Positions 1 to 39,989 of a stretch of 40,402 nucleotides of DNA are shown piece after piece. The first letter of the stretch is position 1. Each line of letters opens with the position of its first letter. Position numbers and translations under genes: made by a program. Below the pieces are notes generated by a model, which had not been told where the DNA came from, ran no database searches, and worked only from the letters and a program-made list of their open reading frames with translations. The DNA comes from a virus. The stretch covers positions 1 to 40,402 of the IMG/VR virus record IMGVR_UViG_3300048589_001641. The stretch is one strand, 5' to 3'.

Positions 1-867
1 GGAGATGATCCGGTTGGAGGTGATTTGCTGCTTGCCCTGGATGTAGTCGTTCAAGTTGAGTCCAGCGCGCTGCAAGGCGGCAAGCCCGCCCTTCGGCATT
101 CGGACCATGCGCACGATCGCTGAGCGGAGCGCAACGCCTGCTTCCGAGCCCACGACCTTGTTCTGCGCGAAGGCCATGGCGATGGCCGTCACGTCGTCGA
201 TGGTGCTTCCGGTCGCACCCGCCGCGCCCGCCACATATTTGAACATTTCGCCCATGTCGCGCAGCGAGGCCGTGGTCCTGACCGCGGCGTATGAAATCCG
301 GTCGGCTACGGTTGTGGTCGAGCGGGTAGCCTGCTCGACGGTTTCCTTCGGCATCTGGAAGGCATTCAGCGAGGCTGCGATGATCGTTGCCACGTCCGAC
401 GGCTTCATGTCCCCCAGGATCGCGGTCGCGAGCGTCGAATCCATGGCGCCGAGCATCTGCTTCCAGTCGAGACCGGCTTTCAGAAGCTCGGTGCCGGTGC
501 GGATAATCTCTGTGGCGCTCTGCGGATATTTCGCATTCAGGACGTTCGCGATCTTCTCGAATTCGTGGCGTTGCGCGGCGGTCGCTTCGCCCAGCGCCTC
601 CAGCATGTTGCCAGCCTTCTCGAACTCGAAGGCGGTTTTTGCCCCGATCGCACCGATGATCGCCATCGGCGCCGAAACAGCGGTTGCCATCGCTTGGGTA
701 TGACGTTGGAGCGCCGTTGCGTTTGCCGCGATCTGCTTGGCGGTGCCGAGCGCGACAGTGGCCCGGCCGGCTGCCTGCAAAGCGGCGAGAGACCGCGCCG
801 CCGTCCGCGCCGGTCCGGACACGCCGTCGATAAGGCGCACGACCAAGCGCGAGGTGAGATCAGGCAT
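1..867 (-). CDS. Phage tail tape measure protein, TP901 family (3' end outside window)
   Basis: The minus-strand frame is open from ATG at 867 to the window edge (289 codons seen). The protein starts MPDLTSRLVVRLIDGVSG and continues with helical, alanine-rich sequence typical of TP901-type tape measure N-termini, including the segment SLRDMGEMFKYV and the motif GSEAGVALRSAIVRM. Tape measure proteins span the tail tube lumen, set tail length and help DNA ejection. It follows the E/E'-like chaperone gene by 6 bases, the usual P2/TP901 order (tube, chaperone, tape measure). The C-terminal part, normally hundreds of residues with hydrophobic segments, is not in the window. This call is confident because both sequence and position agree. 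Confidence 0.9.
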   Translation of the reverse strand, partial: MPDLTSRLVVRLIDGVSGPARTAARSLAALQAAGRATVALGTAKQIAANATALQRHTQAMATAVSAPMAIIGAIGAKTAFEFEKAGNMLEALGEATAAQRHEFEKIANVLNAKYPQSATEIIRTGTELLKAGLDWKQMLGAMDSTLATAILGDMKPSDVATIIAASLNAFQMPKETVEQATRSTTTVADRISYAAVRTTASLRDMGEMFKYVAGAAGATGSTIDDVTAIAMAFAQNKVVGSEAGVALRSAIVRMVRMPKGGLAALQRAGLNLNDYIQGKQQITSNRIIS

Positions 868-873
868 TGCGGG

Positions 874-1328
874 TTATCGTCCGATATTGGCCTTTGCGAT
901 CCGTGCGGCTTCCTCGTGCCAGGCGCAGACCTCGGCCCAGTCCATGTCGAGCAGGTTTGTGATCGGGGTTGCGAGGATATGCGCCGTTTCGGCTATGACG
1001 CTTCGCCATCCTTGCGGCGAAGCTTCTCCGGCAAAAAACCGAGCAGCACTCCCGAAAGCTCCAAGACGTCCTCGGCGTCGAGCTCGTCGATGGCGGCCTC
1101 GGGCAGACCGTTGATCGCAGCAAGGAGGGCGAGTGAAGCGGCAATATCGCCGCCGCCCTCATTCTGGACCCGCTCCAAAAGCCGCATGTCTTTCGCTTTA
1201 GGCCGGCGGAGCTTCAATTCCGCGACCGTGACCTCGCTGCCGGCGGCGTCCCGGTAGGTGACGGGGAACAGGAGCGTGTAGGTTGCGGCCTGCGATACGG
1301 CCTGAGGACCTTGCGTTTTCGCAGTCAT
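874..1328 (-). CDS. Tail assembly chaperone frameshift fusion (E+E'-like, -1 programmed frameshift)
   Basis: The -1 frame is open from the slippery site (1032-1038) to TAA at 874-876. A ribosome slipping back one base on T TTT TTG keeps the first 99 residues of the chaperone and adds 52 new ones. The extension contains ETAHILATPITNLLDMDWAEV and CAWHEEAARIAKANIGR, which resembles the P2 gpE' family (short, with tryptophans and a helical, charged C-terminus). The extension ends 6 bases before the tape measure ATG. Lambda G/GT and P2 E/E' use the same arrangement; the long form recruits the tape measure protein. Frame, open length and slippery heptamer are seen directly; use of the frameshift is inferred. 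Confidence 0.78.
993..1328 (-). CDS. Phage tail assembly chaperone (P2 gpE / Mu gp41-like), zero-frame product
   Basis: A 111-residue protein beginning MTAKTQGPQAVSQAATYTLL and ending LRRKDGEAS. It resembles the short tail assembly proteins encoded between tube and tape measure in contractile-tailed phages; these coat the tape measure while the tube polymerises and are absent from the mature virion. The ATG at 1328 has an AAGGGGGA ribosome site about 10 bases upstream. The gene contains a T6 run at 1033-1038 read as T TTT TTG, where a -1 slip gives a longer fusion (separate entry). The family call rests on composition, size and strict gene order. Confidence 0.82.
   Translation of the reverse strand: MTAKTQGPQAVSQAATYTLLFPVTYRDAAGSEVTVAELKLRRPKAKDMRLLERVQNEGGGDIAASLALLAAINGLPEAAIDELDAEDVLELSGVLLGFLPEKLRRKDGEAS
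1032..1038 (-). promoter_or_regulatory. Slippery heptamer T TTT TTG (-1 ribosomal frameshift site)
   Basis: On the minus strand the zero frame reads GGT TTT TTG CCG, so the heptamer T TTT TTG matches the X XXY YYZ rule for -1 slippage. After slipping, both tRNAs re-pair with TTT. The following bases (CCGGAGAAGCTTCG and onward) could form downstream structure, but no clear stem was worked out by eye. Confidence 0.75.
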
Positions 1329-1343
1329 GAAAAATGTTCCCCC

Positions 1344-1892
1344 TTAGCGCTCGGCGGTCGCGGCGCGCGGAATGCGAAGGATGGTGTTCGTAGTCTGGCC
1401 TTCATCCGCGCCGTTGATGCGCAGCGTGTTTGACCAGAAATCCCAGAACCATTTTTCTTCGGTGTTGAAATAGACCTCGTAATGGGTGACCTCGTGCAGG
1501 GCATAATCGGTCGCCATCAGGTCGCCCCGCTTGAAAGCATCGCTTTCGATCTTGCCGAGGCGGGCCTCCATGACCGCGCGAAGCTCGATCGAGGCGCCGG
1601 TGCGGCGATCGCGGATTTCGCCATAGGCCGTGTAGATGTGTTTGATCCGCGAGCCGAGCCCGAACTGGGTCAGCAATTCCGGGTCGAAGCCGACCAGCTT
1701 GAAGGTCGGCTCCAGCTTCTTGATGCCGACCTCGATTTCGATGCCGACCTTGGAGCCGCCCGGCATGTGGTCCTGATAGTCCGCTTCGAGGGCAGGGAGC
1801 TTCAGCTCCTGCAGGGTCAGGTGCTTGGAATTCTTCGGATCGTGATCACCGCAGAACAGATTGGCGGCTTCGAGAACGTATAGCGTGCTCAC
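1344..1892 (-). CDS. Phage major tail tube protein (P2 gpFII-like)
   Basis: A 182-residue protein starting at GTG 1892, with TAGGAG 6-7 bases upstream. Features typical of the P2 FII tube family include the N-terminal LYVLEAANLFCGDHDP, the central KVGIEIEVGIKKLEPTFKL and the C-terminal RINGADEGQTTNTILRI. The protein polymerises as rings into the inner tube of a contractile tail. It is followed by the assembly chaperone and preceded by the sheath gene, the canonical FI-FII-E order. Length is close to P2 FII (about 170 residues). Confidence 0.93.
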   Translation of the reverse strand: MSTLYVLEAANLFCGDHDPKNSKHLTLQELKLPALEADYQDHMPGGSKVGIEIEVGIKKLEPTFKLVGFDPELLTQFGLGSRIKHIYTAYGEIRDRRTGASIELRAVMEARLGKIESDAFKRGDLMATDYALHEVTHYEVYFNTEEKWFWDFWSNTLRINGADEGQTTNTILRIPRAATAER

Positions 1893-1936: not shown

Positions 1937-3442
1937 TCACGCGGCGAGATCGATCTGTGAGAGCAAGTCGTCGAGGAGGACGTCCAGGGCAGCGCGGTAT
2001 CGCGCCGAGCGAATGCCGAGATGGCGCAGCACCGGCGGCTCTTCCGCGGCAAAGTCCACGGTGAACTTGCCGAGCCGCAATTGCTCGGGCGAATTCTGAT
2101 CGCGGGTGAAGCCGACCTTGTAGTCGATGATGTCGCCGTCCGCTTTGAGGTCGCGCAGGGCAAACCGCATGGTATCGAGCACGTCCTGCACCGTGCCGTA
2201 GTCGATGTTACGCCGGCCGAGAAAACCGCGGAGCGTGCGCAGGAACATCAAGTGGATGAAATCGCGGCCGCGCACGATATGGTAGAATTGCCAAAGCGGA
2301 TCTTCGGAGCAGTTGTCGGTACCGATATAGACGAAGCCGCCGGATGCGATGGCCGTTTCGACGCCCATTTCGCCACGCACCACGATGCCGGCATTTTGCG
2401 AGAGCAGGACCTGGCCTTCGGTCGCTCCGTCAGTGAGCGAGAACTCGATCGGACGGTTCGGGCCGATGATGCCCTGCACCGGCTGGTTCGCCCAGGAATG
2501 AAAGGGCCGGCCGCCGAATTCGTGATCGCGGCGCACCGCAATGCCGATCACCCGGGGCGAGGCCGGTTTTACGATCGGATTGACCCCGACCTTCACCGCG
2601 GTTTCGACCGGGATCAGGCGATGGCTCTGCATCGTCTCTCGCCAGTCTGTATAGGCCTGCTGCGTCGTGGCCGGGCCGTCGAGCGCGGCCACCGCAAGCA
2701 GCTTTTCAAGCACCGGCGTGAGTGCGGCGCAGACCGGGTTGGCAAGGATTTCGATGGCCGCGGTTGCGGTCGGAAGCTCCTTGTCCGGATCGTCGCCGCC
2801 GCCCGAAAACGACACCGTGAGCAATCCGGAGAGATGGGCGCCTGGATTATCGACGATGAGTGAAACTACCTTGCCGTCGTTATCGCCTTCGCCGAGCACG
2901 GCATGGGCTTCTGGCAGGATCTTGCCCGGATCGTTGCCCCCGCCTGAAAATTCGACGGCCGGGGCCTGCGTCAGGTTTGTCCCTTGCGTGCCGAGCACCA
3001 GCGACCCGAGTCCCTGATATTGCTGCGAGGTCAGGCCCGGCACCGCGATCAGGCGCGGGATCACGCCAAGCACGGGACCCGCGAGCGTGAAGGCCCAGAT
3101 GCCGGTTTTTTGAGCGGACGATCCAATCGCATTGGCGATCGTGGCCCAGATATCGGCCCCCTGTTCGATCCGCACGATCACGACCAGTGCCGCGACCTGG
3201 AATTCGCCGAGCTGTGCGTTGATGCCCTCGATGGCGTCGGGGAGCGTTCCGATCACACCGAGCGCGGTGAGCTTTGATTTATCGTCGCTGTAGAGGACGA
3301 CCGGTGTGTTGATCGGAAAGGTGTCCGCGTTGGCCTGCGGGGCGGTGCCGACCAAACCGACCACGGACATGTCGCTGACGATCGCGGGCCGCGGCTGGTT
3401 ATCGACCCGCGTGATCGAAATGCCGAACGTGGGAGAGGACAT
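1937..3442 (-). CDS. Phage tail sheath protein (P2 gpFI-like) with an inserted beta-rich segment
   Basis: Start ATG 3442 (MSSPTFGISITRVDN) was preferred over in-frame 3538 because GGAGA lies about 8 bases upstream and the extra 32 residues look like noise. The 501-residue product has the N-terminal GLVGTAP and NTPVVLYS, and the C-terminal half with VIGIAVRRDHEFGG, RRNIDYGTVQDVLDTM and EPPVLRHLGIRSARY of contractile sheath proteins. Residues about 142-232 look like an insert: two copies of an FSGGG(N/D)DPxK-LP motif (about 165-175 and 212-223) separated by VVSLIVDNPGAHLSGLLTV. P2 FI is about 100 residues shorter, which fits an added surface domain. Confidence 0.93.
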   Translation of the reverse strand: MSSPTFGISITRVDNQPRPAIVSDMSVVGLVGTAPQANADTFPINTPVVLYSDDKSKLTALGVIGTLPDAIEGINAQLGEFQVAALVVIVRIEQGADIWATIANAIGSSAQKTGIWAFTLAGPVLGVIPRLIAVPGLTSQQYQGLGSLVLGTQGTNLTQAPAVEFSGGGNDPGKILPEAHAVLGEGDNDGKVVSLIVDNPGAHLSGLLTVSFSGGGDDPDKELPTATAAIEILANPVCAALTPVLEKLLAVAALDGPATTQQAYTDWRETMQSHRLIPVETAVKVGVNPIVKPASPRVIGIAVRRDHEFGGRPFHSWANQPVQGIIGPNRPIEFSLTDGATEGQVLLSQNAGIVVRGEMGVETAIASGGFVYIGTDNCSEDPLWQFYHIVRGRDFIHLMFLRTLRGFLGRRNIDYGTVQDVLDTMRFALRDLKADGDIIDYKVGFTRDQNSPEQLRLGKFTVDFAAEEPPVLRHLGIRSARYRAALDVLLDDLLSQIDLAA

Positions 3443-3599
3443 CGAACTGTCTCCGCTGCAAAGTCTGGAAAAGAAAAGGGCCGCGCTTGGCGGCCCTTGC
3501 TGATGCATGCTTGCGCGCGAATTTTGCGCTGTGTTCACAAGAACGTGTGGGTATTGTCTACAGAATTGGGCTTAGCATTCCTGCTAGACGGAAGGCTCT

Positions 3600-5950: not shown

Positions 5951-8200
5951 TTAGAGCGCCCAATGGATGCGCTCGGCGGCATGGAACATCGATGCCGGTG
6001 AATTGGTCGCGCCGTCGATCACGACGGTGAAGCCGGAAACCGCAGTGCCGAGCTGGAAGTTGAAGGTGCGCTCGATCCGCCCGTCGGCTTCACTGACCAC
6101 CCGATCTGTCACCACATCCGGCGTTTCGTCAGCGCCGCCGATGCGGAGCCGGCAGGTGCAATCATGCGGCGTATCGTCGAAATATTCGAGCAGCAGCCGC
6201 ACGAAGATGTTGTTGGATGCCGCGGCAAGCGTAATGGGCGTGGACACGTGCCGGAACGAGGTCTTGGGTCGCGAAACCGAAAGGCGCGATCCGCCGAGCA
6301 TGAGGCCGGGTTGCATATCGCGCGTGCCGATGAAGCGAGCCCGGAACTGCACCAAAGGCGGCGCGCCGTTGAGCGCCGGCGAACCGCCGGGCGCAAGCGG
6401 CGTCCAATCGCCACCCGGCGCCTTGATCTCATAGATGAGCTCGGTCGATTCCGGAGCGATGGTGCCGGCAAGAATATCGATCGCCCGCATGCCGCCGTCG
6501 AGGTTGATGGGTTTCAGCTCGATTGCGACCTGCGGCGCATTGAACCGCGCGCCCCAAAGCTCGATCATCAGGTCCTTGGTGAGATCGCCATAATAATAGG
6601 CGCCGTCGGTCGAGTAGAAGAAGGTGCCGTCGGTGTAGCTCTGTCCATAGGCCATGCCGACGCGGTGCGCGGCGTTCGAGGTGAGGACCAGCGCATAGCG
6701 CCCGCCCGCGCGCAAGAAAGTAGGCGTCACCTGCACGCGGTTCCAGGCATTCTGCAACAGCGCCATATGCGGGACCGAGACCTGCAGGATCGCCTTCGAC
6801 AGATCGGGTACGCCGTTCGTGGTTTCACACAGGGTCAGATGAACCGCTTCATCGGCGCCCTTCGCGGTCAGGTAGAAGCCGACTTTCGTCAGCCACATGT
6901 CGTTTGAGACCAGGAAGCTCTGCGCCACCTGCGCGCCAACGATCTGATGCTCGATGACGATATGGTCCCAATAGCTCTCGTCCCAGGCGTCGATGAACAT
7001 CTCGACCAGGCGGGTTTTCTTGTGCTTGCGCACCTTGTCGGGGTCGAGCACCAGGAAGCTTTCGCCATCCTTCTTGAAGATCCGGGTCGCCGGATCGTAT
7101 TCGCCCGAAAGCCACCATTGCTTGCCGCTCGAGACCTTGAATTGCGCGCCATAGCGGATGCGCTGGCGGGAAATCGTGCGCTGCACAATATCGTGGGTCT
7201 GGAAACCGTATTGGGCGATGCCGAGATCCGAATGCATCGGTCCGACTTGCAACTTGAGCACGTCGATATAGGCCGGGAGGAGGAGCCCGTTGCTCAACCG
7301 CGCGTTCGGGTCGTTTGACGAGAACACGTCCATCTCGGCCGCGCTTTCGTTCGCGGGGGCAAAGCGCAGGCCTTCCTCGATCTTGGCGTCGTAGCCGAGA
7401 CTTTGCGCATTCTGCGCGTCGCTCTCCTCGTCGTCGAGAAATCGGTCAGCGCCATAGGCAGAGGCATCGTCCGGAAGCTCCAGCCGCTCCTTCATGCGGG
7501 CGATATCGACATAGAGGCTCGCGATCTCGGTCATCTCGCCCTTCTGGCGGATCTGATTGGCGAGAGCGGCAAGATCGGACGCGAGCGAGGCAACCCGCGG
7601 CTCAATCTGGCGGCGGAATTCCTCCAGTGTATCAGTGCGCTGGTCGAGGGCTTCGGTCGAGGCGACCGCGTTGTCGGTCAGCATGGTCACCGAGAGAACT
7701 TGCGTCGGATCGAGCAGGACATGCGCCACGGCGACATGTGCGACGGGGATCGCGGGAGGCTGCGGGTCGGGGCTTTCGCTGCCAGCGGTGAAGGCCAGCA
7801 CCGCATCGCGCGCGCGGGTCAGCGCCACGCTGTCCGGTTCGGTCTGATTGGTTTCGACGTTGACGAGGAAATCGCGCTCGGTGACGTCGGTATCGTTTTC
7901 CTGACCGAATACCGACACCGCAACAATGCGCTTCGAGGCTGCCGCAAGATACGGGACCATGCTTTGGGTAAGACTCGAACTGCGTGCGAATACCGCGCCT
8001 CCGGCCTGATAGAATCGGCCCGGAGCGACCGCAATCTCGGCCTGTGCGCTCTTGGTCACGTTGAAGCCAGCATAGCGATGGCTTTTGGTGACCGCGTCAT
8101 CGACGATATGCTCGAACGACGCGCGCGCGAAGGATTGCAGATTGTTGTGATCGGACGCGGTCTGTTCCTGATAATCACGAAAGATGACCTGCTTTTCCAC
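5951..8200 (-). CDS. Large DUF4815-like tail fibre/baseplate protein
   Basis: A 749-residue protein from GTG 8200 (read as MEKQVIFRDYQEQTASDHNN). The N-terminal third (ASFEHIVDDAVTKSHRYAGF, then AEIAVAPGRFYQAGGAVFAR and the VSVFGQENDTDVTERDFLV region) matches the DUF4815 pattern found in baseplate-attached fibre proteins. A predicted coiled stretch (about 190-260) precedes beta-rich C-terminal sequence with carbohydrate-binding-like segments (AWNRVQVTPTFLRAGGRYAL). It follows gpI, where P2-like phages place the fibre gene gpH. Probable role: bridging baseplate and fibres, or receptor contact. The exact function is inferred. Confidence 0.75.
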   Translation of the reverse strand: MEKQVIFRDYQEQTASDHNNLQSFARASFEHIVDDAVTKSHRYAGFNVTKSAQAEIAVAPGRFYQAGGAVFARSSSLTQSMVPYLAAASKRIVAVSVFGQENDTDVTERDFLVNVETNQTEPDSVALTRARDAVLAFTAGSESPDPQPPAIPVAHVAVAHVLLDPTQVLSVTMLTDNAVASTEALDQRTDTLEEFRRQIEPRVASLASDLAALANQIRQKGEMTEIASLYVDIARMKERLELPDDASAYGADRFLDDEESDAQNAQSLGYDAKIEEGLRFAPANESAAEMDVFSSNDPNARLSNGLLLPAYIDVLKLQVGPMHSDLGIAQYGFQTHDIVQRTISRQRIRYGAQFKVSSGKQWWLSGEYDPATRIFKKDGESFLVLDPDKVRKHKKTRLVEMFIDAWDESYWDHIVIEHQIVGAQVAQSFLVSNDMWLTKVGFYLTAKGADEAVHLTLCETTNGVPDLSKAILQVSVPHMALLQNAWNRVQVTPTFLRAGGRYALVLTSNAAHRVGMAYGQSYTDGTFFYSTDGAYYYGDLTKDLMIELWGARFNAPQVAIELKPINLDGGMRAIDILAGTIAPESTELIYEIKAPGGDWTPLAPGGSPALNGAPPLVQFRARFIGTRDMQPGLMLGGSRLSVSRPKTSFRHVSTPITLAAASNNIFVRLLLEYFDDTPHDCTCRLRIGGADETPDVVTDRVVSEADGRIERTFNFQLGTAVSGFTVVIDGATNSPASMFHAAERIHWAL

Positions 8201-13424: not shown

Positions 13425-14450
13425 CTAGTGATGAAGCCCTTTGATCAGCGCGCGCGGACGCAGGCAAAGTGACAGCGGATTGCTCTGCATCTCGAGCCGC
13501 ACGGACTTGTTGTTGTCGGACGGGATCGCCTTGGCATAACGCGGCAGACCTAGCGTATTGACGGTTTCGATATAGTCCGCCGGCGCAAAGAACGTCTTGA
13601 ACAAGTTCGGTGTGCCAAGCGGGAAGAAGTGCGCCTCATTGGGATCGATAAACGGGGTCACGGTATCGCCCGTGTCGGTGCCGCCACCGATCCAACCGCG
13701 GTAGTTCTCGAAGGTGACGCCGCCGTATTTAAGCGTGGAGAACACCACGCCCTCGCGCAACCGCACGCCCTCCTGGTAGCGATAGGTATCACGCACCTCG
13801 GCGTGCTCGATCAGGTCGTCCCAGAAGGTGTCACCGCAAAGCGCATATACGCTGGTGAAGGCGACCCCTCCCAGCGTCTGCGACATGGTGCGTACCAGCT
13901 GACTGCACTTCTTGCGGACGGCGGTATTGGCGCTGCCGAGGGCGAAGTTGATCGGCGTGATTGCCGTGACGCCGAACTCTGAGAAGAGATCGTAAATCGT
14001 ATTGCCATCGCGGTCGACGATCAGGCCCTTGATGGCGCCCACCCGCTGGAATTCGGTCGTCGCATCGAGCTGAGCGGTAAACATTTCCATTCGCCCCGAG
14101 AGATAGGTCTCGACCGAGCGCGCCTGCATCTGCGGCCCGAATTCGCGCACGTTCTGCACTTCCTCGGCCAGCACATTGTCGTCAAGTTGATAATGCGGGA
14201 CTTTGAGAACCCGCGCCCGGCGCAGCGGCTTGGGGCGGGTTTCGCCCGGACCGCCGCGCGGCGTCGGGTTGACCAGCGTCAAGATGCCGGACTGCTCTTC
14301 GAGCGCGATCGAGGTCGTCGGTACCGGCGCCTCCGTAAACAGTCCGAGCGCGCCCAGGCGCCCCGGCACGAAGGGAAGCTTGTTAATGTTGTCGGTCAGC
14401 GTGACGAAGTTAAAAGCGTCATTGCTGAACACGTCGAGAATAGGTTCCAT
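13425..14450 (-). CDS. Major capsid protein, lambda gpE family
   Basis: A 341-residue protein starting MEPILDVFSNDAFNFVTLTD. Lambda-type features include LTDNINKLPFVPGRLGALGLF, the loop PTTSIALEEQSGILTLV, LKVPHYQLDDNVLAEEVQNV and the C-terminal FFPLGTPNLFKTFFAPADY. Typical length is 340 residues. It assembles the icosahedral shell, together with the gpD-like decoration protein encoded upstream. CCAGGA precedes the ATG at 14450. Confidence 0.96.
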   Translation of the reverse strand: MEPILDVFSNDAFNFVTLTDNINKLPFVPGRLGALGLFTEAPVPTTSIALEEQSGILTLVNPTPRGGPGETRPKPLRRARVLKVPHYQLDDNVLAEEVQNVREFGPQMQARSVETYLSGRMEMFTAQLDATTEFQRVGAIKGLIVDRDGNTIYDLFSEFGVTAITPINFALGSANTAVRKKCSQLVRTMSQTLGGVAFTSVYALCGDTFWDDLIEHAEVRDTYRYQEGVRLREGVVFSTLKYGGVTFENYRGWIGGGTDTGDTVTPFIDPNEAHFFPLGTPNLFKTFFAPADYIETVNTLGLPRYAKAIPSDNNKSVRLEMQSNPLSLCLRPRALIKGLHH

Positions 14451-14496
14451 CGTTTAATCCTGGGGTTTGGATATTGCGGGGGCGCGCGTTTTGAAA

Positions 14497-14871
14497 TCAG
14501 CGGACGACGATTCCGACTGCGCGCAGCTGATCCTGCTTGGCGGATTTCTTGAGGTCGTCATCGACACTGGCGTCGTAGATGAGGCCATGGCGATTGACTT
14601 CGGCGTGGCGCATGAGCCCGACCGCGACCACATCGGAACTGGTGGCATCAACACGGCCGACCAGAATGGCGACGGCAGCCTCCGAACCATCCGCTGCTGT
14701 CTCGGGCGAGGGAGCGAACTTGCTGCTTGCCGTCAGTTTCCCGAGCACCGTTCCTGGCAGCAGCGCTCCGGCGCCGGAGGCGATCACGATATTGTCCCGC
14801 GACAGCCGGCCCTCTTCGTCCTCCGAGAGAATGAAGTTTCCATCATGCGGATTCTCAAGCAGCACGGTCAT
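14497..14871 (-). CDS. Head decoration protein D (lambda gpD family)
   Basis: A 124-residue protein with GGGAGAG about 4 bases before ATG 14871. The FILSEDEEGRLSRDNIVIAS start, the GALLPGTVLGKLT motif and AVAILVGRVDATSSDVVAV are diagnostic of gpD-like decoration proteins, which trimerise on the expanded capsid to stabilise it. It precedes the major capsid gene, as D precedes E in lambda. Confidence 0.94.
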   Translation of the reverse strand: MTVLLENPHDGNFILSEDEEGRLSRDNIVIASGAGALLPGTVLGKLTASSKFAPSPETAADGSEAAVAILVGRVDATSSDVVAVGLMRHAEVNRHGLIYDASVDDDLKKSAKQDQLRAVGIVVR

Positions 14872-14937
14872 AAAGCTCTCCCGTTCGCCGGAACGACGGC
14901 GCGGACGTTGGCCATTTCAAAGTGAAGACGCTAAGGG

Positions 14938-15390
14938 TCAGCGCGCAGACGCACCCGAGGCAGCCGCACGGCGGCGGGCATAGATTTCTTCGGTGTTGAT
15001 CACGCGCTGCGGCTCCGCAGAGGATCGATCGCCACCGGCACCCAGTTTAGGCTGCACCTCTCGCGCCATGGCACTGTCGAGATTACTCTTGGCTGCTGGT
15101 GACTTCGCTAGCGCCACAAGCACAAACTCCGCTGCAAGCTCGGTGTCGAAGGCGAAGTAATGCGCAAGCTCTTCGCGACCCTTGGCTGCATCAGCGGTGA
15201 TGATCGCCCTGATGCGAGTGCGTTCAGATGCGCTACCTTGCTTAAGGCCTTCCGCCTCGCCGGCCATGCGTGCTTGTGTCACCCGCGTCGCAATGTCTTC
15301 GCTGGTCTCCACGGAACCCGTATTCTCGTGCGAAGCCAAAGTGGTCACGTCGGCCGCCGCGCCGGCGGCTGCCAGGATTACGTCTCGCAT
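14938..15390 (-). CDS. Scaffold-like protein (Ser/Ala-rich, resembles C-terminal scaffold part of phage S49 proteases)
   Basis: A 150-residue protein with AGGAGA 6 bases before ATG 15390. The core SERTRIRAIITADAAKGREE, LAHYFAFDTELAAEFVLVAL is the pattern usually fused behind phage S49 protease domains or encoded as an overlapping scaffold (lambda C/Nu3 style). Here the protease gene ends about 1 kb away, and an intruding segment (transposase remnant and PilZ genes) separates them. The gene has its own ribosome site, so it may still be made. Role: internal scaffold for prohead assembly, an inference. Confidence 0.75.
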   Translation of the reverse strand: MRDVILAAAGAAADVTTLASHENTGSVETSEDIATRVTQARMAGEAEGLKQGSASERTRIRAIITADAAKGREELAHYFAFDTELAAEFVLVALAKSPAAKSNLDSAMAREVQPKLGAGGDRSSAEPQRVINTEEIYARRRAAASGASAR

Positions 15391-15399
15391 TGTTGTCTC

Positions 15400-15575
15400 C
15401 TAGGGCTGGACTCAGTAGCGCCTGGTCAAATTCGGATTGATGCGAGTTTGACGAACGCTAGATAGTTGGCTGCAAGCTTGTCGTATCGCATCGCGACACG
15501 CCGGCACTGCTTGATCTTCTGGAAGAACCCTTCGATCAGGTTGCGCGTGCGATAGAGATAAAGGCTAAGGCCATC
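15400..15575 (-). pseudogene. Remnant of IS5/IS427-type transposase (C-terminal fragment)
   Basis: Minus-strand translation of 15426-15563 gives LYLYRTRNLIEGFFQKIKQC, RRVAMRYDKLAANYLAFVKL and ASIRI, the classic C-terminus of IS427-group transposases (usual reading RNLVERFFNKIKQCRRVATRYDKLA). The frame ends at a TGA where these proteins usually have a tryptophan; traces of the remaining tail (ATESSP) run to about 15400. No N-terminal catalytic region or terminal inverted repeats were seen nearby, so this is an inactive remnant marking an old insertion. Confidence 0.8.
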
Positions 15576-15755
15576 CAGCGCACTTGAACTAATGCGTCCC
15601 GTTAAGGTTTAGAATGGTTTGTATTGGCGTTCGATTGTTCAGAGGTATAATCTGTGAATGTCTGCTGTTTGTAGGCCGCGACCTGCTCACTGTCGCGAAT
15701 TGCGAAGCCTCCAGCGCCAATGTCGCCCCCGGCGCTGGAGGCTCTCAACCAATCT

Positions 15756-16007
15756 TCAACGGTCAAGCTTAAAATAAACGCCGACTTTGGACCCCGACTG
15801 CCACGCAATATGGCAGGAGCGCCGTATATATTCCGGCTTGATCACGACGGAAAAGCTCTTCGGCAACACCGGCCGAAATGGGAATTCCAGGCAAGCACCC
15901 GCCATCGACATATTGAGTATCGAACAGTCTACAATCGCCGCGACTCCGAAGCTGACCGAGCCCTGCTTCATCAGGTTCTCTCTCGGAGTCTTGCGTCGCT
16001 CGATCAT
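15756..16007 (-). CDS. PilZ domain protein (copy 2 of tandem pair)
   Basis: An 83-residue single-domain PilZ protein: RKTPR (RxxxR motif, residues 5-9) and NMSMAGACLEF (NxSxxG motif), then a beta barrel ending KVGVYFKLDR. PilZ domains bind cyclic di-GMP through these two motifs, and both are intact. It lies 3 bases downstream of the other copy in the same direction and shares roughly half of its residues with it, so the pair is a tandem duplication. The DNA is visibly less GC-rich than the flanking phage genes. Such small PilZ proteins are abundant in Bradyrhizobium-like chromosomes. A host origin is inferred. Confidence 0.85.
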   Translation of the reverse strand: MIERRKTPRENLMKQGSVSFGVAAIVDCSILNMSMAGACLEFPFRPVLPKSFSVVIKPEYIRRSCHIAWQSGSKVGVYFKLDR

Positions 16008-16010
16008 TTG

Positions 16011-16262
16011 TCAGCAGCCGCTCACAAACCGCACGCCAACGCGATATTCAGATTGCCAAACGATCTGACAGGAGCGGCGTATGCTTTCCGGTCCAATCGC
16101 AAAGGAGAATTCGCTGGGCAATGCGGTCCGTCGATGCGGAAAAACAAGACAGGCGCCGCCGTTGGACATGTTGCGCACCGCGCATTCAATACCACGACCG
16201 TAGCCAATCAATACAGCACCCGCTTTGGGGGTTGTCGTTCGTTCAGTCCGGCGTCGTTCCAT
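16011..16262 (-). CDS. PilZ domain protein (copy 1 of tandem pair)
   Basis: ATG 16262 (MERRRTERTTTPKAGAVLIG) is preferred over the upstream TTG 16277 because GAGGTC lies about 9 bases before it and the product then has the same 83-residue length as copy 2. RxxxR (RRTER) and NxSxxG (NMSNGGACLVF) are present, as is the ending YRVGVRF, which lines up with copy 2. A c-di-GMP-responsive adaptor role is known for the family; any role in the phage is not. It sits between the protease gene and the transposase remnant, and shares the orientation of the packaging operon. Confidence 0.85.
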   Translation of the reverse strand: MERRRTERTTTPKAGAVLIGYGRGIECAVRNMSNGGACLVFPHRRTALPSEFSFAIGPESIRRSCQIVWQSEYRVGVRFVSGC

Positions 16263-16455
16263 CGGGTCCGACCTCAAGTGCTCACAAAGCTAGGTATTGC
16301 ATGCCGACTAAGTTAACCTGAACCAACAACCCGTTAAAATGGAAGTTCGGGCAACGCCGCGTTAACGCTAAGGACACGCTGTCCAAGCTGCGCAGGCCTA
16401 TTGTCATATTGGTTTCTACGCGGGCTGCATCCTTAAGGGCCTGAGATCTTCCGAT

Positions 16456-17391
16456 CTATCGGTCACTCAATCTACTTCTGGCGTTGATCGCCCTGACGAA
16501 GCCATCGAAAGCGTCGAGCGCATGGCCAGTGGCATCGGCAAGACCCAACGCGACCGCATCCCGGCCGCGATAGTCCTGCGCCTCGGTTGCCAAGGCGGCT
16601 TGTGCCGTTAAACGCGAGCCACGGTAACGCCCGACGCTCTGAGCGAAGGTCTGCCGTGCCGCTTCGAGATCGCCGACGATCCGCTGTGCGACGTCGTCGG
16701 CCAGGGCCTCGAACGGATTGCCAGCCATTTTTTGTGTGCCCGCCCGCAGCACCGTGACCTTTACGCCCTGCTGCTCAAGCGCTTTCGACCAGTCGGCATG
16801 CAACGTCACCACGCCGATCGAGCCGGCGCGCCCGTGTTCGGGCATGACAATCTGCCGCGCCGCCGACGCCAGCAGGTAGCCGGCCGACAGTGCGTGATCG
16901 GTCAGAATGGCCAGGGTCGGCTTTTCGGCCGACAGCCGGGCGATCAGGTCCGCGGTCTCGAAAGCGCCGGCAAGCTCGCCGCCAAAACTGTCGATCTCGA
17001 ACACCGCGGCCTTGATGGCGGGATTGCGCATGGCGCGCAGCACCTGCGCCTGCAGTCCCTCATAGGAAGTCCGCCCGGACATGGCGCCGACATAAGCACC
17101 TTTGTGCACCAGCGTGCCCTCGATCGGGATCAGTGCGATCCCATCGATCGTGTCGAACATGGCTGACCCGTTGGCGTCATATCGCCGACCCGTACGATCG
17201 CCGATGCGACCAGCCAATGGCCGGCCATTCGCGAACGTCACATGATCGACGCGTTCGCCGACGCCCTCCAGCACCACACCGCCCTCGACGATCCGTCCGC
17301 CGATGCCGGCGAGCGCCGCATCGAGCTTGCCCGGATGCATCAACAGCGGGGTGTTGAACACCCGCGCGGCCAATTCAGGACGCAGGATCAT
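16456..17391 (-). CDS. S49 family phage prohead protease (lambda gpC-like)
   Basis: A 311-residue serine peptidase. The fold starts around IDGIALIPIEGTLVHKGAY; the nucleophile Ser169 lies in DHALSAGYLLASAA and the general base Lys221 in GTQKMAGNPFEAL, the Ser/Lys dyad of the SppA/S49 family. EIDSFGGELAG corresponds to the family's DSPGG segment. It would mature the prohead by cutting scaffold and portal. ATGA overlap with the portal stop (17388-17391) couples the two. It lacks the usual C-terminal scaffold extension, which is found separately at 14938-15390. Confidence 0.93.
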   Translation of the reverse strand: MILRPELAARVFNTPLLMHPGKLDAALAGIGGRIVEGGVVLEGVGERVDHVTFANGRPLAGRIGDRTGRRYDANGSAMFDTIDGIALIPIEGTLVHKGAYVGAMSGRTSYEGLQAQVLRAMRNPAIKAAVFEIDSFGGELAGAFETADLIARLSAEKPTLAILTDHALSAGYLLASAARQIVMPEHGRAGSIGVVTLHADWSKALEQQGVKVTVLRAGTQKMAGNPFEALADDVAQRIVGDLEAARQTFAQSVGRYRGSRLTAQAALATEAQDYRGRDAVALGLADATGHALDAFDGFVRAINARSRLSDR

Positions 17392-18995
17392 GCCAGCGCC
17401 TTTTGCTGCTTGGCCGGCGATTGATCGTCAGTGTCACCGGATGGCGCGGCCTTACGATCGAACATGGCGTCGGGATCAAGCCCGAGCGCCAGCATCTCCT
17501 TGCGCTCGCGCGCCCGCTGCTGGATGGTCTCGAGATAATCCTCGCCCTGTTCGGCGCATTCACGCTCAAGCGTCGACAAACCCGCCGCCAGGCGCTCGGT
17601 CGCAGCCGTCGCCTCCTTGTGCGGATCGACCCAACCGCGGCCGGGACCAATCCATTTCGCCGCGCAATAGGCGGCCTTGGCCTGTGCAAATTCAGGCGCC
17701 CCCTTCGGTAGCTTGATGATCCCGCGGTCAATCGCCTCCTCCAGCCAGCCGGCATAGATCGGCGCCATGAAGGCTTGCGCGAAGTGCTCCTTGCGGGCGG
17801 TGAAGCCGCGCCAGACCTCGAGCAAAGCCGCGCGGGCCGAGGAATAGTTGACCTGACCCCAGTCCATCGACAGCTGTTCATAGGTCATGCCCATTGCGGC
17901 TGCGACATTGCGCAGGCTTGCGCGCTCGAAGGCTTCGAACACGCTGTTGGGATGGTTCGGTTTGGTCAGCATCACCTTCTCGCCCGGGAACGTAAACGCG
18001 ATCTTGGCGCCGCCAACGTTGATGGGAGCTGCTTGGTAATAGTCGAGCCGCTGCTGCTGGTAGGCCGACAGCTCCTCGCCACCTCCCAGTGCCGATGCGA
18101 ACTGATCATGATCGAACGGGCTTTCGACAAAAGCCGCCATCACGGCGTTGAGGACGGCAGCCTGTAGTTCGGCCTCGTCGTAGCGACCAAGCATTCGCAA
18201 CCGTTTGACGATCGGCGCCAGCACGGAGACGCCACGATACTGGCCGGCGCGCCCCGGCTCGAAGGCGTGCACCACCACCCGGCGGCCGAAGCTGGTTTCC
18301 CGCGGAATGCGCTCCCAGGTCCAGAACATCGGATGAAACACGTTCTGGTCGCCGGGGTGCGACCGACGAATCTGATAGGCGAGGGGCTCGCCGTGCTCGC
18401 CGAGTTCGATGCCCTGCCGACGCCAGTAGGTATCGACCGCATTGTATGGATTCGATAGCCGGTCCGGATCGATGACTTGAACCGCAGTCGCATAGCGTCC
18501 GCCGCGGGGCAGCCAGAGAATGGCGGCGAGCGCCTCGCCATCCATCAGTCGATGCCGGAACGCCAGCGCCAGCAGCCCGCCCATGGTCATGCGCCGGCCG
18601 GCGTCGCACCAGCAATCCGGGTCCTCGGCAAAATCCTTCCAGGCTGCCTCGATGTCGGAGGCCAGATCCGATGCCACGTCCGGATCGATCTTCAGCGAGC
18701 GCGCATTGGGCTTTGACGACAACCGCCAGCCGGCGCCGATCACGGCATCGACTTGCCGGGTGACACCACCCGATGCCCAGCCGTCGTTGCGGGCGAGATC
18801 ATGGATCCGCGCCGCCAGCACCGGACGATCCGGCGACAGCGCCGTCTGCGCCGACCACAAGGGCGGGCGCCAGTGCGCCAGATCCGGATCGGTGACTGAA
18901 GCGCCGGCATAGCCAGCCGCCAGCATGCGCGCCGTGGAACGCGGCCCGGCCGGAATTCTGACCGGACTTCCATCAGGTCCAAGCAGATTGACCAT
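17388..18995 (-). CDS. Phage portal protein, lambda gpB family
   Basis: A 535-residue protein with lambda-portal features: RIHDLARNDGWASGGVTRQV, DAVIGAGWRLSSKPN, DGEALAAILWLP, QVIDPDRLSNPYN, HAFEPGRAGQYRGVSVLAPI and the helical C-terminal half (AAMGMTYEQLSMDWGQVNYS, SSARAALLEVWRGF). The dodecameric portal sits at one vertex and lets DNA in and out. The start ATG overlaps the gpW-like stop by one base (TGATG). The length equals lambda gpB (533). Confidence 0.96.
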   Translation of the reverse strand: MVNLLGPDGSPVRIPAGPRSTARMLAAGYAGASVTDPDLAHWRPPLWSAQTALSPDRPVLAARIHDLARNDGWASGGVTRQVDAVIGAGWRLSSKPNARSLKIDPDVASDLASDIEAAWKDFAEDPDCWCDAGRRMTMGGLLALAFRHRLMDGEALAAILWLPRGGRYATAVQVIDPDRLSNPYNAVDTYWRRQGIELGEHGEPLAYQIRRSHPGDQNVFHPMFWTWERIPRETSFGRRVVVHAFEPGRAGQYRGVSVLAPIVKRLRMLGRYDEAELQAAVLNAVMAAFVESPFDHDQFASALGGGEELSAYQQQRLDYYQAAPINVGGAKIAFTFPGEKVMLTKPNHPNSVFEAFERASLRNVAAAMGMTYEQLSMDWGQVNYSSARAALLEVWRGFTARKEHFAQAFMAPIYAGWLEEAIDRGIIKLPKGAPEFAQAKAAYCAAKWIGPGRGWVDPHKEATAATERLAAGLSTLERECAEQGEDYLETIQQRARERKEMLALGLDPDAMFDRKAAPSGDTDDQSPAKQQKALA

Positions 18996-19225
18996 CAGAA
19001 ACTCACCCGGCGCGCAAAGCCGCGAGCGTTCAGTCCGAGCTTGCCACGCAGCTCAGCGATATAGCCGCGCAGCGTACCGACATTCTGCGCGTTCCATTCC
19101 ATGCTCTTGTCACCATGGCGCATCCGCGCGACGCTTCCCTGCACCACGACCGCATGCAGTGCGGCCTCGGCCTCGGTGAGTTGTGCTCGCCAGAGGGTGA
19201 CCTCCGCCGCCGTCGCCATATTCAT
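18995..19225 (-). CDS. gpW-like head-tail joining protein
   Basis: A 76-residue protein with the lambda gpW pattern: a helix (EVTLWRAQLTEAEAALHAVV), a short hairpin (GSVARMRHGDKSMEWN) and a second helix (LRGYIAELRGKLGL). gpW occupies the lower portal ring and is needed before tail attachment. ATGA overlap with the terminase stop (19222-19225) and TGATG overlap with the portal start show tight coupling, and the order terminase-W-portal is that of lambda. Confidence 0.9.
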   Translation of the reverse strand: MNMATAAEVTLWRAQLTEAEAALHAVVVQGSVARMRHGDKSMEWNAQNVGTLRGYIAELRGKLGLNARGFARRVSF

Positions 19226-21258
19226 CGGCCCATGTTCAGCCGCGCCAAGGCGGCGACGCTGGTCACAGGCTTCACTTGGCGCACAGCGTCGGTTTGCTCT
19301 GATCTAGCTTTCGGCTTTGGCTGTCGCGGCTGCGCCGTGTCGGCGATGCGTTGCACACCCAGCATGTAAGCCGCCGCATAAGCCATCGCCTCGCAGTCGA
19401 GAAAGTGATTGTCACGCGAGCGGTGGACCCAGGTGTAGCCGCCGGAAGGCTTCTTGACGCGGCCCTCCGACACGATCTGCCGGCAATAGGCCTCCGTGGT
19501 GTCGCCTGGCAGATGCCAGCCGCCGGGCTGATCGTCCGGCCAGCGCACCCGTTCGTGCACCCAGGATTTGAAGAAGTCGCTATCGAGACGAACCAGATCA
19601 AGACCGTACTTGGCAGCCTTGCCCTTGGGCGTCACGTCAATGCGCTTGACCGACAGCGGCTGGTCGCGATGGTCGAACCCCTTCACTGCATAGACAACGC
19701 GCGCGTGCCGCCGGCAGAACTCGTAGACTCGGTGCTCTGGCACCTCGTCTTTCTTGCCGGGGCGGAAGCCTGAATCGATGAAGGCACGGCGGATCAGCAG
19801 ATCGCCGAACGGGCGTGCCAGCATCTCGGCCAGATCGACCCAGACATCGCCGTGCTCGGTCTCGCCCCAGATCTCGTTCTGCTCGATCAACCAGCTTTCC
19901 TGGCGCACGCCCCAGCCGCGGACCACGGTGACAAGCCGGTTCTTCTGCACGTCGATGCCGGCGGTGAGCAGCAGCACACCTGCCGGGATATCGCGCGACC
20001 GATAGGGCAGCTTGAGCCGCGCCACGTCGGCCCATTCCGGTGCATCACCGCCGGCCGGAGCCCAAAGCTCTCCGAACCCCCCATTAATGACGGTCTGGAC
20101 TTCTTCCTGATCGCCCGAGTTCAAGGCCTCGACGTAGCGGCCGGCACGCTCGCCGAACGATACGAAGGGCGACGCCAACCCCGAGACCCAGAAGCTCACG
20201 GTCGTACCATCCGGCGGATCGCCGATCACACGGCCATCCGGTTCGATCCGCTGCCCTGGCGCGACATAGACGCCGTGGGCGTTCATCTCGAACTTGTGCT
20301 TCTCCTCGACGACGCCGTCACAATTGGGGCATTGCAGGAAAGCGAGCCGACGCGCCTCGATCGCGGTCGCGTCGCGTTTGATAGTCTCTTTGCCGCCCTT
20401 CGGTGTGATGTCGATCTTAGGGATCACCAGGCAGTCGAACCGCGGGATGAAATAGTCCTCGCAGTGCGGACACGGCCAGGCCCAGTGATATCGGGTGCCG
20501 CGCTGCCAGAGCTTCCAGATCGGACTGTCGAGGCTCCCGATGTCGTCGTGCTCGATGACAGTCCAGAATTCGAGCCCGGTTGCATCGTCCTTCTCGATCT
20601 CGACCGATCCCTCGGTCGGCGTCGACGTCACCCCAAGCGTAAAGTCGGCATGGGTGTCACCGCGGACCTCGAGGAGGCGCACGGGGTCGCCTTCGCCCTT
20701 GATGTTTTTGGCCATGCCGTCACGTTCGTCGACGATGGCCAGGCCCGCTGGATCCGACTTGAGCTGGTTCGCAGAGCCTGCCCAGGCAAGACGCACCGGC
20801 ACGCCGGAGACGATCTTGCGGGTCTTCTTGTTCTTCTTGCCGCGCGCCAGCTTCACCGACAAGCTTGGCGATCGGTTGAGCGCATCGTCGAACCGCGGCT
20901 CGAACTGGTCGGTGACGAAGTTGCGGTCGGGGCCAGCGTAGATGATCGGCACCGGACGCTGATCAAGCCGCGACAGGATCACGTCGATGACACTATCGGT
21001 TTTGCCCATCTGGCCCCCACAGACGAACACCACGGTATTGTAGCGCGCGTCCTCGAAGGCCCGCATGAACGGGATCATGTAAGGGGTGAGCGCCGGATCC
21101 TTCGGCCCCGGCCGGCCCGAGGAGAGCGGATAGACCCGGTTCTCCCGCGACCAACGATCAGTCGATACCTTCTTCCTCGGCCGCAGGATCCTCGTCACCC
21201 GATCGATAAGAACGGCCGAGTTTTGCGATGCGGTCGGCCACTTCGGAGAGCGCATCAT
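19222..21258 (-). CDS. Terminase large subunit, lambda GpA family
   Basis: A 678-residue packaging motor. Walker A GGQMGKT is at residues 81-87, Walker B IVDERD at 175-180, and a zinc ribbon is formed by CPHC (263-266) and CPNC (310-313). The nuclease half begins near GIDVQKNRLVTVVRGWG, with acidic D436 and D495 (FIDSGFRPGKKDE). Lambda gpA cuts cos sites and drives packaging. The chosen ATG overlaps the small-subunit gene by about 100 bp; GTG 21198 is a possible later start that would reduce this to about 40 bp. Length is close to lambda gpA (641). Confidence 0.96.
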   Translation of the reverse strand: MMRSPKWPTASQNSAVLIDRVTRILRPRKKVSTDRWSRENRVYPLSSGRPGPKDPALTPYMIPFMRAFEDARYNTVVFVCGGQMGKTDSVIDVILSRLDQRPVPIIYAGPDRNFVTDQFEPRFDDALNRSPSLSVKLARGKKNKKTRKIVSGVPVRLAWAGSANQLKSDPAGLAIVDERDGMAKNIKGEGDPVRLLEVRGDTHADFTLGVTSTPTEGSVEIEKDDATGLEFWTVIEHDDIGSLDSPIWKLWQRGTRYHWAWPCPHCEDYFIPRFDCLVIPKIDITPKGGKETIKRDATAIEARRLAFLQCPNCDGVVEEKHKFEMNAHGVYVAPGQRIEPDGRVIGDPPDGTTVSFWVSGLASPFVSFGERAGRYVEALNSGDQEEVQTVINGGFGELWAPAGGDAPEWADVARLKLPYRSRDIPAGVLLLTAGIDVQKNRLVTVVRGWGVRQESWLIEQNEIWGETEHGDVWVDLAEMLARPFGDLLIRRAFIDSGFRPGKKDEVPEHRVYEFCRRHARVVYAVKGFDHRDQPLSVKRIDVTPKGKAAKYGLDLVRLDSDFFKSWVHERVRWPDDQPGGWHLPGDTTEAYCRQIVSEGRVKKPSGGYTWVHRSRDNHFLDCEAMAYAAAYMLGVQRIADTAQPRQPKPKARSEQTDAVRQVKPVTSVAALARLNMGR

Positions 21259-22341: not shown

Positions 22342-23631
22342 TTATTGGCTGATCTTGCGGTTGGCGGATTGTGCTATTTGGCTTGAGGCACCGAACGGTT
22401 GATCTGTTTCCCCATGCCGGCCTTCTCCCCCCGTCGTTTTCTGCCAGCGCTGAACGATGACGTCGACGTATTTGGGATCGAGCTCGATGAGCCGCGCCCG
22501 CCGTCCAGCCCGCTCCGCCGCAATCAGCGTCGTGCCTGAGCCGCCGAACGGATCGAGCACGATGTCGCGGCTCTTGGACGAATTGCGGATCGCGCGCTCG
22601 ACCAGAGCCACTGGCTTCATCGTCGGGTGTAAATCGTTCTTGTGCGGCTTGTCGAAGAACCAGACATCGCCCTGGTCGCGCGCGCCGCACCAATAGTGAT
22701 CGGTTCCGCTTTTCCAGCCGTAGAGAATTGGTTCGTATTGGCGCTGATAGTCGGAGCGACCAAGTGTGAAGCTGTTCTTGGCCCAGATCACGAACGTCGA
22801 CCACTTTCCGCCGGCCTCGCGGAACGCCTTCTGCAGCCGGTCGAGCTCAGACGAGGACATGCAGATGTAGACGGCACCCTTGGTGAGGGCGAGGATATTG
22901 ACGCAGGCGTCGTAGAGAAGGGCGCCGAAGTCCTTGCCAATTTTGTCGTTCAGGATCGGGCGATTCTTGCCGCCTAGCTTGTCCTTTGGGGTGTTGGCGT
23001 AGTCCACATTGTACGGTGGATCAGTGAACGTCATATCGGCGAGTTCACCTCCGAGGACCTTCTCGACATCGGACAGTATAGCGGCGTCGCCACACAGCAC
23101 GCGATGCTCGCCGCAGATCCACAGATCGCCGGGACGGCTGATCGGCTCCACTGGCGGCTCGGGTGCCTCGTCGAGGTCGCCGTCGGTGTCGGCATCGCCC
23201 AGCAGTAGCTTGTCGAGCTCATCCCGATCAAAGCCAGTCAGCGTCAGATCGAAACCGGACTGGCGCAGATCACCGAGCTCAAGCCGGAGGAGTTCATCAC
23301 TCCACTCGCTCGATTCCGTCAATTTATTGTCGGCGATCGCATAAGCCTGACACTGCGCCTCGGTCCAGCCGTGGGCGACAATCGTCGGCACTTCGGCGAT
23401 GCCCTCGAGCTTAGCCGCCTCGAGCCGGCCGTGACCGGCGATCAGCATGCCGTTTTCTCGCACCAGCACCGGCATGGTCCAGCCGAACTCGCGAAGCGAA
23501 GCCCGGATCTGCTCGATCTGCTCGGGCCCATGAAGGCGGGCATTGCGCGGGTTCACGGTGAGCCGCCCGATGGGCCAGAATTCGATTTTCGCGGCCGGCC
23601 AGGCGGCTGAGGGTTTTTGAGCTTCGAGCAT
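22342..23631 (-). CDS. ParB-domain DNA methyltransferase (N4/N6, beta class), orphan
   Basis: Start ATG 23631 (MLEAQKPSAAWPAAKIEFWP) is preferred; the frame extends to 23721 without a credible site. Residues about 15-105 form a ParB/sulfiredoxin-like domain (NPRNARLH, GMLIAGHGRLEAAK). The methyltransferase follows, with catalytic DPPY at 204-207 before the SAM-binding DPFGGSGTT at 360-368, the order of beta-class amino-methyltransferases; HPTMKP lies at 335-340. It methylates adenine N6 or cytosine N4 at an unknown site. No restriction enzyme lies nearby, so it probably protects phage DNA from host restriction or regulates packaging or replication. Confidence 0.92.
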   Translation of the reverse strand: MLEAQKPSAAWPAAKIEFWPIGRLTVNPRNARLHGPEQIEQIRASLREFGWTMPVLVRENGMLIAGHGRLEAAKLEGIAEVPTIVAHGWTEAQCQAYAIADNKLTESSEWSDELLRLELGDLRQSGFDLTLTGFDRDELDKLLLGDADTDGDLDEAPEPPVEPISRPGDLWICGEHRVLCGDAAILSDVEKVLGGELADMTFTDPPYNVDYANTPKDKLGGKNRPILNDKIGKDFGALLYDACVNILALTKGAVYICMSSSELDRLQKAFREAGGKWSTFVIWAKNSFTLGRSDYQRQYEPILYGWKSGTDHYWCGARDQGDVWFFDKPHKNDLHPTMKPVALVERAIRNSSKSRDIVLDPFGGSGTTLIAAERAGRRARLIELDPKYVDVIVQRWQKTTGGEGRHGETDQPFGASSQIAQSANRKISQ

Positions 23632-23771
23632 TGATATCGTTGGGTTATTTGGCCGCGGGACCAAACCAAACTGAGGTTTTTCGATTTGGAAAAACGCGCG
23701 TTTTCCGGGCGGCGGCGCCACCGCTTGTGAGGCCCCCGAAGGAAGGACCCGTGACTTGATCCGAGCGTTCG

Positions 23772-38233: not shown

Positions 38234-38679
38234 CCGACACTGTTCTGGCCCAACTGGCTGCCCTGAAAGTCGCGCCGATCGGCGCGCTCAAGCAGAAATG
38301 GCGCGATCTCTTCGAGAGCGAGCCGCCGCCCTATAACAGGCGCTTCCTTGAGCATCGGCTGGCCTACCGGATTCAGGAACTGGCCTATGGCGGCCTCAAG
38401 CCCGAGACCTTGAAACGTCTGCGCGAGCTGGCCGAGACGCTCGATGGCGGCAAGGTGGATGTGCGGCGGCGCCGCGCAGACCACGATCGCCCCATCGCTG
38501 GCACCCGGCTTATTCGCGAATACCAAAGCGTTGAGCATTGCGTGACGGTGCGCGACGACGGATACGAGTACCAGGGTCGTCCCTACAAATCGCTGTCAGC
38601 CATTGCGCGCGCCATTACCGGCACGCAATGGAACGGGCGCGTCTTTTTCGGACTCAAAAACCAGCGGGTGGCCCGATGA
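38230..38679 (+). CDS. DUF2924 domain protein
   Basis: A 149-residue protein from TTG 38230. DUF2924 motifs: LKQKWRDLFESEPPPYNRRF, LEHRLAYRIQELAYGGL, GTRLIREYQSVEHCVTVRDD, YEYQGRPYKSLSAIARAITG and TQWNGRVFFGL. The family almost always precedes a large serine recombinase, and a role in recombination is suspected. Stop and recombinase start overlap as ATGA. Confidence 0.93.
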   Translation: MTDTVLAQLAALKVAPIGALKQKWRDLFESEPPPYNRRFLEHRLAYRIQELAYGGLKPETLKRLRELAETLDGGKVDVRRRRADHDRPIAGTRLIREYQSVEHCVTVRDDGYEYQGRPYKSLSAIARAITGTQWNGRVFFGLKNQRVAR

Positions 38680-39989
38680 AGAAGCCGATCGTGCGAAAGC
38701 TTCGCTGCGCGGTCTATACCCGCAAGTCGAGCGAGGAGGGGCTCGAACAGGAGTTCAATTCACTCGACGCCCAGCGCGAGGCTTGCGAGGCTTACATCGC
38801 CAGTCAGAAGCCAGAGGGCTGGGTGCTGGTGCCGGACCGCTACGACGACGGCGGGATCTCTGGCGCGACCCTGGAGCGGCCGGCGCTGAAACGTCTGCTG
38901 GTCGATATCGAGGACCGGCGCGTCGATGTCATTGTTGTCTACAAGATCGACCGGCTCAGCCGTGCGCTGATGGATTTCGCCAAGCTGGTCGAGGTGTTTG
39001 ATCGCAATAGCGTCACCTTCGTCAGCGTGACGCAATCTTTCAATACGACGACGTCGATGGGGCGGCTGACACTCAACATCCTTCTCAGCTTTGCCCAGTT
39101 CGAGCGCGAGGTCATCGGCGAGCGCATTCGCGACAAGTTTGCCGCTTCCCGCAGGAAGGGGATGTGGATGGGTGGTTTCGTCCCGCTCGGCTATGACGTT
39201 AGGGATCGCAAGCTGGTCGTCAATGAGGCCGAGGCGGCAGCAGTCCGGACGATCTTCGAGCGCTTCATCAAGATCGGATCCGCGACCGAACTTGTGCGCA
39301 AGCTCCGGGCCGAAAATGTCCGGGGCAAGCAGGGCAAGCTCGTCGACAAGGGCTATGTCTACAAGCTACTTAACAACCGGGTCTATGTCGGCGAAGCAGT
39401 GCACAAGGGCGTGGCGTATCCCGGCGAACACCAGGCCATCATCGACCGGGTCCTCTGGGATCGCGTCCACACCGTCCTGCGCGAGAGCCCGCGTAAGCGC
39501 GCTGCAAACACACGGGCCCAGACGCCCGCGTTGCTCAAAGGTCTAATCTTCGGGCCGACCGGTCGGGCGATGACCCCGGCGCATACGCGCAAGGGCGGCA
39601 AGCTCTACCGCTATTATGTCTCAACCGACGTGCTCAAACGTGATGCCGACGCGTGTTCGGTTCGGCGAGTCCCCGCGGCCGAGATCGAGAGCGCCGTCGT
39701 CGACCAGTTGCGCGGCCTCCTGCGCACGCCTGAGATCATTGTCGGCACGTGGCGCGCGGCCAAATCGATGGGCTATATCTCGGAGGCCGAGGTGCGCGAG
39801 GCGCTGCACCGGCTCGACCCGCTCTGGGACGAACTCTTTCCCGCCGAGCAGGCACGCATCGTCCAGCTACTCGTCGAGCGCGTTGATGTCAGCCCGGATG
39901 GTGCCGATATCCGGCTGCGGACCGAGGGACTGACAAATCTGATCGCCGACCTGCGTGCGGTCAGACCGGAATCTCGGAGGGCGGCGTAA
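38676..39989 (+). CDS. Large serine recombinase (site-specific integrase)
   Basis: ATG 38676 (MKKPIVRKLRCAVYTRKSSE) overlaps the DUF2924 stop and is preferred over upstream starts. The 437-residue protein has the resolvase catalytic domain: YTRKSSEEG (R16, nucleophile candidate S18), SLDAQREAC, YKIDRLSRALMDFA and the SMGRLTLNILLSFAQFEREV and GERIRDK segments. A recombinase domain (GYDVRDRKLVVNEAEAAAVR) and a zinc-ribbon-like region follow. It would integrate or excise the element. The recombinase lies at the right end of the window; the attachment site is not located. Confidence 0.94.
   Translation: MKKPIVRKLRCAVYTRKSSEEGLEQEFNSLDAQREACEAYIASQKPEGWVLVPDRYDDGGISGATLERPALKRLLVDIEDRRVDVIVVYKIDRLSRALMDFAKLVEVFDRNSVTFVSVTQSFNTTTSMGRLTLNILLSFAQFEREVIGERIRDKFAASRRKGMWMGGFVPLGYDVRDRKLVVNEAEAAAVRTIFERFIKIGSATELVRKLRAENVRGKQGKLVDKGYVYKLLNNRVYVGEAVHKGVAYPGEHQAIIDRVLWDRVHTVLRESPRKRAANTRAQTPALLKGLIFGPTGRAMTPAHTRKGGKLYRYYVSTDVLKRDADACSVRRVPAAEIESAVVDQLRGLLRTPEIIVGTWRAAKSMGYISEAEVREALHRLDPLWDELFPAEQARIVQLLVERVDVSPDGADIRLRTEGLTNLIADLRAVRPESRRAA

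Follow-up and report, generated by a model that had tools for sequence, protein, structure and literature searches.

A P2-type tail assembly chaperone gene probably expressed by −1 ribosomal frameshifting in an environmental phage

Introduction

According to the genome record of phage P2 (accession number NC_001895), in which E, E+E' and a −1 shift site are annotated, the shift site has the codons GGT TTT TTG. P2 gpE and gpE' match the families PF10109 and PF06528, respectively. For P2-like phages that infect other bacteria, an E/E+E' frameshift has been predicted in print, namely for KS5, KS14 and KL3 (PMC3091744) and for Smp131, with T7G in place of T6G (PMC3931495); the extracts of PMC3091744 that deal with the site report that a hairpin was not found for the Burkholderia phages KS5, KS14 and KL3. 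For phage lambda, extracts from PMC5009743 document the ratio of short to long form in tail assembly, give about 30:1 for the two products, and put the frameshift efficiency in P2 and its relatives 2- to 3-fold higher. Frameshifts in tail chaperone genes are treated as common, and as often missing from annotations, in the relevant part of PMC10885494.

The DNA analyzed in the present study was the whole of a 40,402-base virus record (IMGVR_UViG_3300048589_001641; 62% G+C), hereafter called the window. A P2-type frameshift site in its tail region had been proposed from the letters of the sequence, and the site was compared here with close and distant relatives, with codon-preserving null models and with the described systems.

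Materials and methods

Viral contigs were scanned with the E protein, and 21 loci were obtained, consisting of 13 close relatives (84-100% identity) and 8 distant ones. A further scan, for which an alignment of seven sequences was used, yielded 38 viral contigs (the earlier 21 and 17 new ones), and a scan of genome contigs added 3 more, from an Erythrobacter sp. MAG, Billgrantia gudaonensis and a Rhodospirillales MAG. Among the 41 contigs, 10 supplied rows of the extension profile, 11 more were close to the window, and 20 were neither. Variation was scored on an alignment of the window with 12 close relatives (13 sequences, 8 haplotypes), from which L003, whose contig ends inside the extension, was excluded. 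The null distribution for the slip site was generated from 20,000 shuffles in which the E protein was kept and its codons were redrawn.

Results

The first 3.5 kb of the window encode, in minus-strand order, the sheath, the tube, E and the beginning of the tape measure gene (Table 1), and E is placed between an upstream PF04985 gene and a downstream gene matching PF10145 and tape-measure PHROGs. The original prediction had given the order tube, E, E', tape measure, and this order agrees with that annotated in P2. Head genes were located at 13425-21258 (portal, phrog_21; head protease, phrog_53; large terminase, phrog_15; and also phrog_29), and a serine recombinase gene was located at 38538-39989. 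As judged from these matches, the phage appears to be a mosaic of a P2-type tail module, other head genes and a serine recombinase, and to be P2-like only in the tail module. A 749-aa protein encoded in the tail region (5951-8200) had no Pfam match at E 0.001, and a 459-aa protein encoded at 22342-23721 matched ParB-like partition and DNA methyltransferase families. No tRNA genes were found in the 40,402-base window.

Table 1. Features of the tail region, with positions in the window
Feature	Position	Strand	Remarks
Tape measure protein	1..867	-	Start only, gene runs past the window end; PF10145, E=1.4e-27; several tape-measure PHROGs
E' extension, -1 frame	874..1032	-	52 codons (877-1032), TAA at 874-876
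E, zero-frame tail assembly chaperone, 111 aa	993..1328	-	Open frame from the ATG at 1328 to a stop whose last base is 993
Possible stimulatory hairpin	1000..1023	-	9-bp stem, 6-nt loop; starts 8 nt downstream of the heptamer
Slippery heptamer T TTT TTG	1032..1038	-	In the zero frame of E, codons GGT TTT TTG, near the end of E
Tail tube protein (FII-like)	1344..1892	-	PF04985, E=1.4e-17
Tail sheath protein	1937..3538, exact start unsettled	-	phrog_23 tail sheath, E=8.6e-47 (1937-3436 scanned)

The E protein matched PF10109 Phage_TAC_7 (E=2.2e-13, 50.5 bits, cut-off 25) and also phrog_166 (tail), and its ATG is preceded by a strong SD sequence, TAAGGGGG (duplex −10.4 kcal/mol). The heptamer, the 52-codon −1 frame and the spacing of 6 bases (873-868) between the −1 stop and the tape measure ATG (867-865) were all found on the minus strand as originally described, and the interval 874-1328 spans exactly the E+E' unit, from the ATG of E to the −1 stop. 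The fusion would be 151 aa long, and it does not lie in one single open frame, which bears out the expectation that automated gene calling misses it. The E protein of the window (tblastn) and the DNA (blastn) gave no match at E 1e-5 in 50,697 phage records.

By bare count, TTTTTTG was not enriched in the window, with 4 copies against 2.6 expected. When the codons of E were redrawn, TTTTTTG fell in frame within the overlap of E and the −1 frame in 0.29% of the shuffles, and any X XXY YYZ motif did so in 11.8%; by these figures, one sequence alone would be suggestive only. It is conservation that lifts the heptamer above chance. TTTTTTG was found at the same place in 13/13 close relatives (L002-L014), which came from several metagenomes, and the extension was present as a whole in 12 of the 13, with one contig ending within it. 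Codons 98-99 were TTT TTG in all 8 haplotypes. Beyond the stop of E, the variable columns at −1 codon positions 1, 2 and 3 numbered 4, 5 and 22 of 39, respectively, an excess at third positions of the −1 frame that is characteristic of a sequence under translation. Upstream of the site, 42/58 amino-acid-invariant codons varied synonymously, vs 1/12 from the site to the stop of E, the stretch that is read in both frames (Fisher p 5e-5, with the relatedness of the sequences uncorrected). These patterns of variation indicate that purifying selection acts on both E and the extension.

In 6 of the 8 distant loci, another in-frame heptamer (AAATTTT, GGGTTTT, GGGAAAC and, in three loci, CCCTTTG) preceded a −1-frame stretch of 47-56 residues; in the remaining two (L018 and L022) no such heptamer was found, yet a like extension was present in the −1 frame. 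With the 11-extension profile, the extension was detected in the −1 frame in 41/41 contigs and in P2 (E-values 2e-27 to 9e-4). The overlap had one or more in-frame X XXY YYZ motifs in 33 of the 41 contigs, and the extension was kept in the −1 frame without such a motif in the other 8 (L046, L049, L050, L055, L056, L063, L064 and L065), in some of which partial sites (for example TTC TTG, ATT TTG and TCT TTC) stand. The canonical heptamer is therefore not universal in the family, in which the slip sequence changes and the −1 relation is retained.

The original prediction had likened the extension to P2 E'. At the profile level this likeness held, the 11-extension profile, from which P2 was absent, matching P2 gpE' with 97% probability (E 8e-11); for the extension of the window alone it did not, with no Pfam match and a weak match to phrog_20977 only. 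Taken singly, 6 of the 11 family extensions matched PF06528, and that of the window was not among them. A profile of E made without P2 matched P2 gpE in hhalign (91%, E 1e-6).

Downstream of the heptamer, the predicted hairpin of the window gave z=−2.84 over 48 nt and −3.07 over 50 nt. When the −1-frame codons were redrawn, 824/2000 shuffles folded as well and 30/2000 held a stem as long; with the zero-frame codons redrawn, the corresponding numbers were 150/2000 and 165/2000. A stem of this kind occurred at about 1.7% of the positions scanned across the window (191/11,530). By eye, the stem was invariant in the 8 haplotypes save for one loop-closing G-U changed to A-U, and among the 17 sites folded, those of the window, L012, L058 and L060 gave z values of −2 or below. 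The hairpin, only mildly unusual under the codon-preserving nulls, was kept solely as a possible stimulator, for which these values are suggestive only. A pseudoknot of the hairpin loop with the downstream ATCCTCGC, proposed by eye, was dropped because this stretch, viewed in the alignment, changes in relatives. In 8/8 haplotypes the SD-like GGGAG matched the anti-SD better than any other stretch of the 40 nt upstream of the site; as evidence for a dnaX-like upstream element it was rejected, being no stronger than in codon-preserving shuffles (p 0.14).

The ribosome-binding site of the tape measure gene was weak, −1.3 to −4.1 kcal/mol in 8 distinct close sequences vs −10.4 kcal/mol for E of the window. 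The zero-frame stop of E lies about 126 nt upstream of the tape measure ATG; in the clade the distance from the −1 stop to that ATG is 3-6 nt, and in L012 the extension overlaps the ATG.

Discussion

Very probably, the locus is a P2-type E/E+E' gene for a tail assembly chaperone whose long form is produced by programmed −1 ribosomal frameshifting. The site itself, selection on the −1 frame, homology to gpE and gpE' and the arrangement of the genes are what the analysis shows directly. According to the model that we infer, most ribosomes would translate E to its zero-frame stop, and a minority would move back by one base at T TTT TTG, where the Phe and Leu tRNAs would pair anew with TTT TTT, possibly with stimulation by the hairpin. 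The slipped ribosomes would make the fusion and terminate immediately upstream of the tape measure gene. If lambda gpG/gpGT is a guide, E may coat the tape measure protein, the E' part may recruit tail tube subunits, and the short and long forms may be needed in a set ratio.

Three other origins of the split frame were considered. Transcriptional slippage, by which RNA polymerase rather than the ribosome would yield the fusion, is invited by the six consecutive T at the site, and such slippage is known, according to extracts from PMC5009743, in bacteria at stretches of roughly nine A or T. Against it, homologous loci have the same −1 joint at CCCTTTG, GGGTTTT, AAATTTT or GGGAAAC; the family is independent of a homopolymer because any run of a single base at these sites is shorter than five, and we consider polymerase slippage very unlikely. 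E' might instead be an independent gene, read from a start codon within E, and a possible GUG start of P2 E' is noted in the part of PMC3931495 concerned. The −1 open frame of the window, in which such a start was looked for, has no ATG, GTG or TTG giving full-length E': the only start candidates in the whole frame are ATA at 996, CTG at 954 and ATG at 945, the ATG yielding 23 residues, and the ORF listing has no ORF of at least 40 aa ending at 874. A separate start is ruled out as far as the sequence allows, and we give it a slighter chance than slippage of the polymerase.

The last of these origins, faulty sequencing or decay of the gene, draws on the tendency of homopolymer runs to attract errors. 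It is already contradicted by conservation, since the frame relation is the same in every one of the 41 contigs and in P2, the heptamer recurs in all the close relatives across several metagenomes, and both parts are under purifying selection; we give it hardly any credence. Programmed slippage of the ribosome thus stays the preferred explanation of the long form.

Given such frameshifting, it is conceivable, although we think it rather unlikely, that in this clade it sets the dose not of E+E' alone but also of the tape measure protein. It would be mainly the slipped ribosomes that restart on the tape measure gene, only shifted ribosomes reaching the −1 stop of the extension, and the chaperone, the fusion and the ruler would then be locked in fixed proportions. 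Against this coupling, 6 of 10 other starts examined in the window were about as weak as the tape measure start, and in several distant relatives the site at that start is strong. No statement of a coupling between the tape measure gene and the E frameshift was found in the extracts of the literature searched, which is no proof of novelty.

The device is a known one, and the present locus is an ordinary example that leaves the understanding of the mechanism unchanged. With it, an environmental phage family well removed from P2 would join the known tail chaperone frameshifts, and gene models can be corrected for a long form that ordinary gene calling would not yield.

In lambda, as described in the extracts consulted for gpG/gpGT, a short and a −1-extended chaperone are likewise encoded between the tail tube and tape measure genes, a likeness seen in gene order and logic. 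The FETUD operon of P2 is closer, sharing with the window the order tube, E, E', tape measure and the codons GGT TTT TTG, with E in PF10109 and an extension that is kin to PF06528. The two E proteins have 22% identity. E' of P2 overlaps the start of T, whereas the E' stop of the window sits 6 nt before the tape measure ATG. P2 has no unusual structure downstream of the site (z −0.31), an absence stated too in the extracts of PMC3091744, in contrast to the 9-bp hairpin of uncertain meaning in the clade of the window. Finally, the P2-type tail is joined here to head genes of another type.
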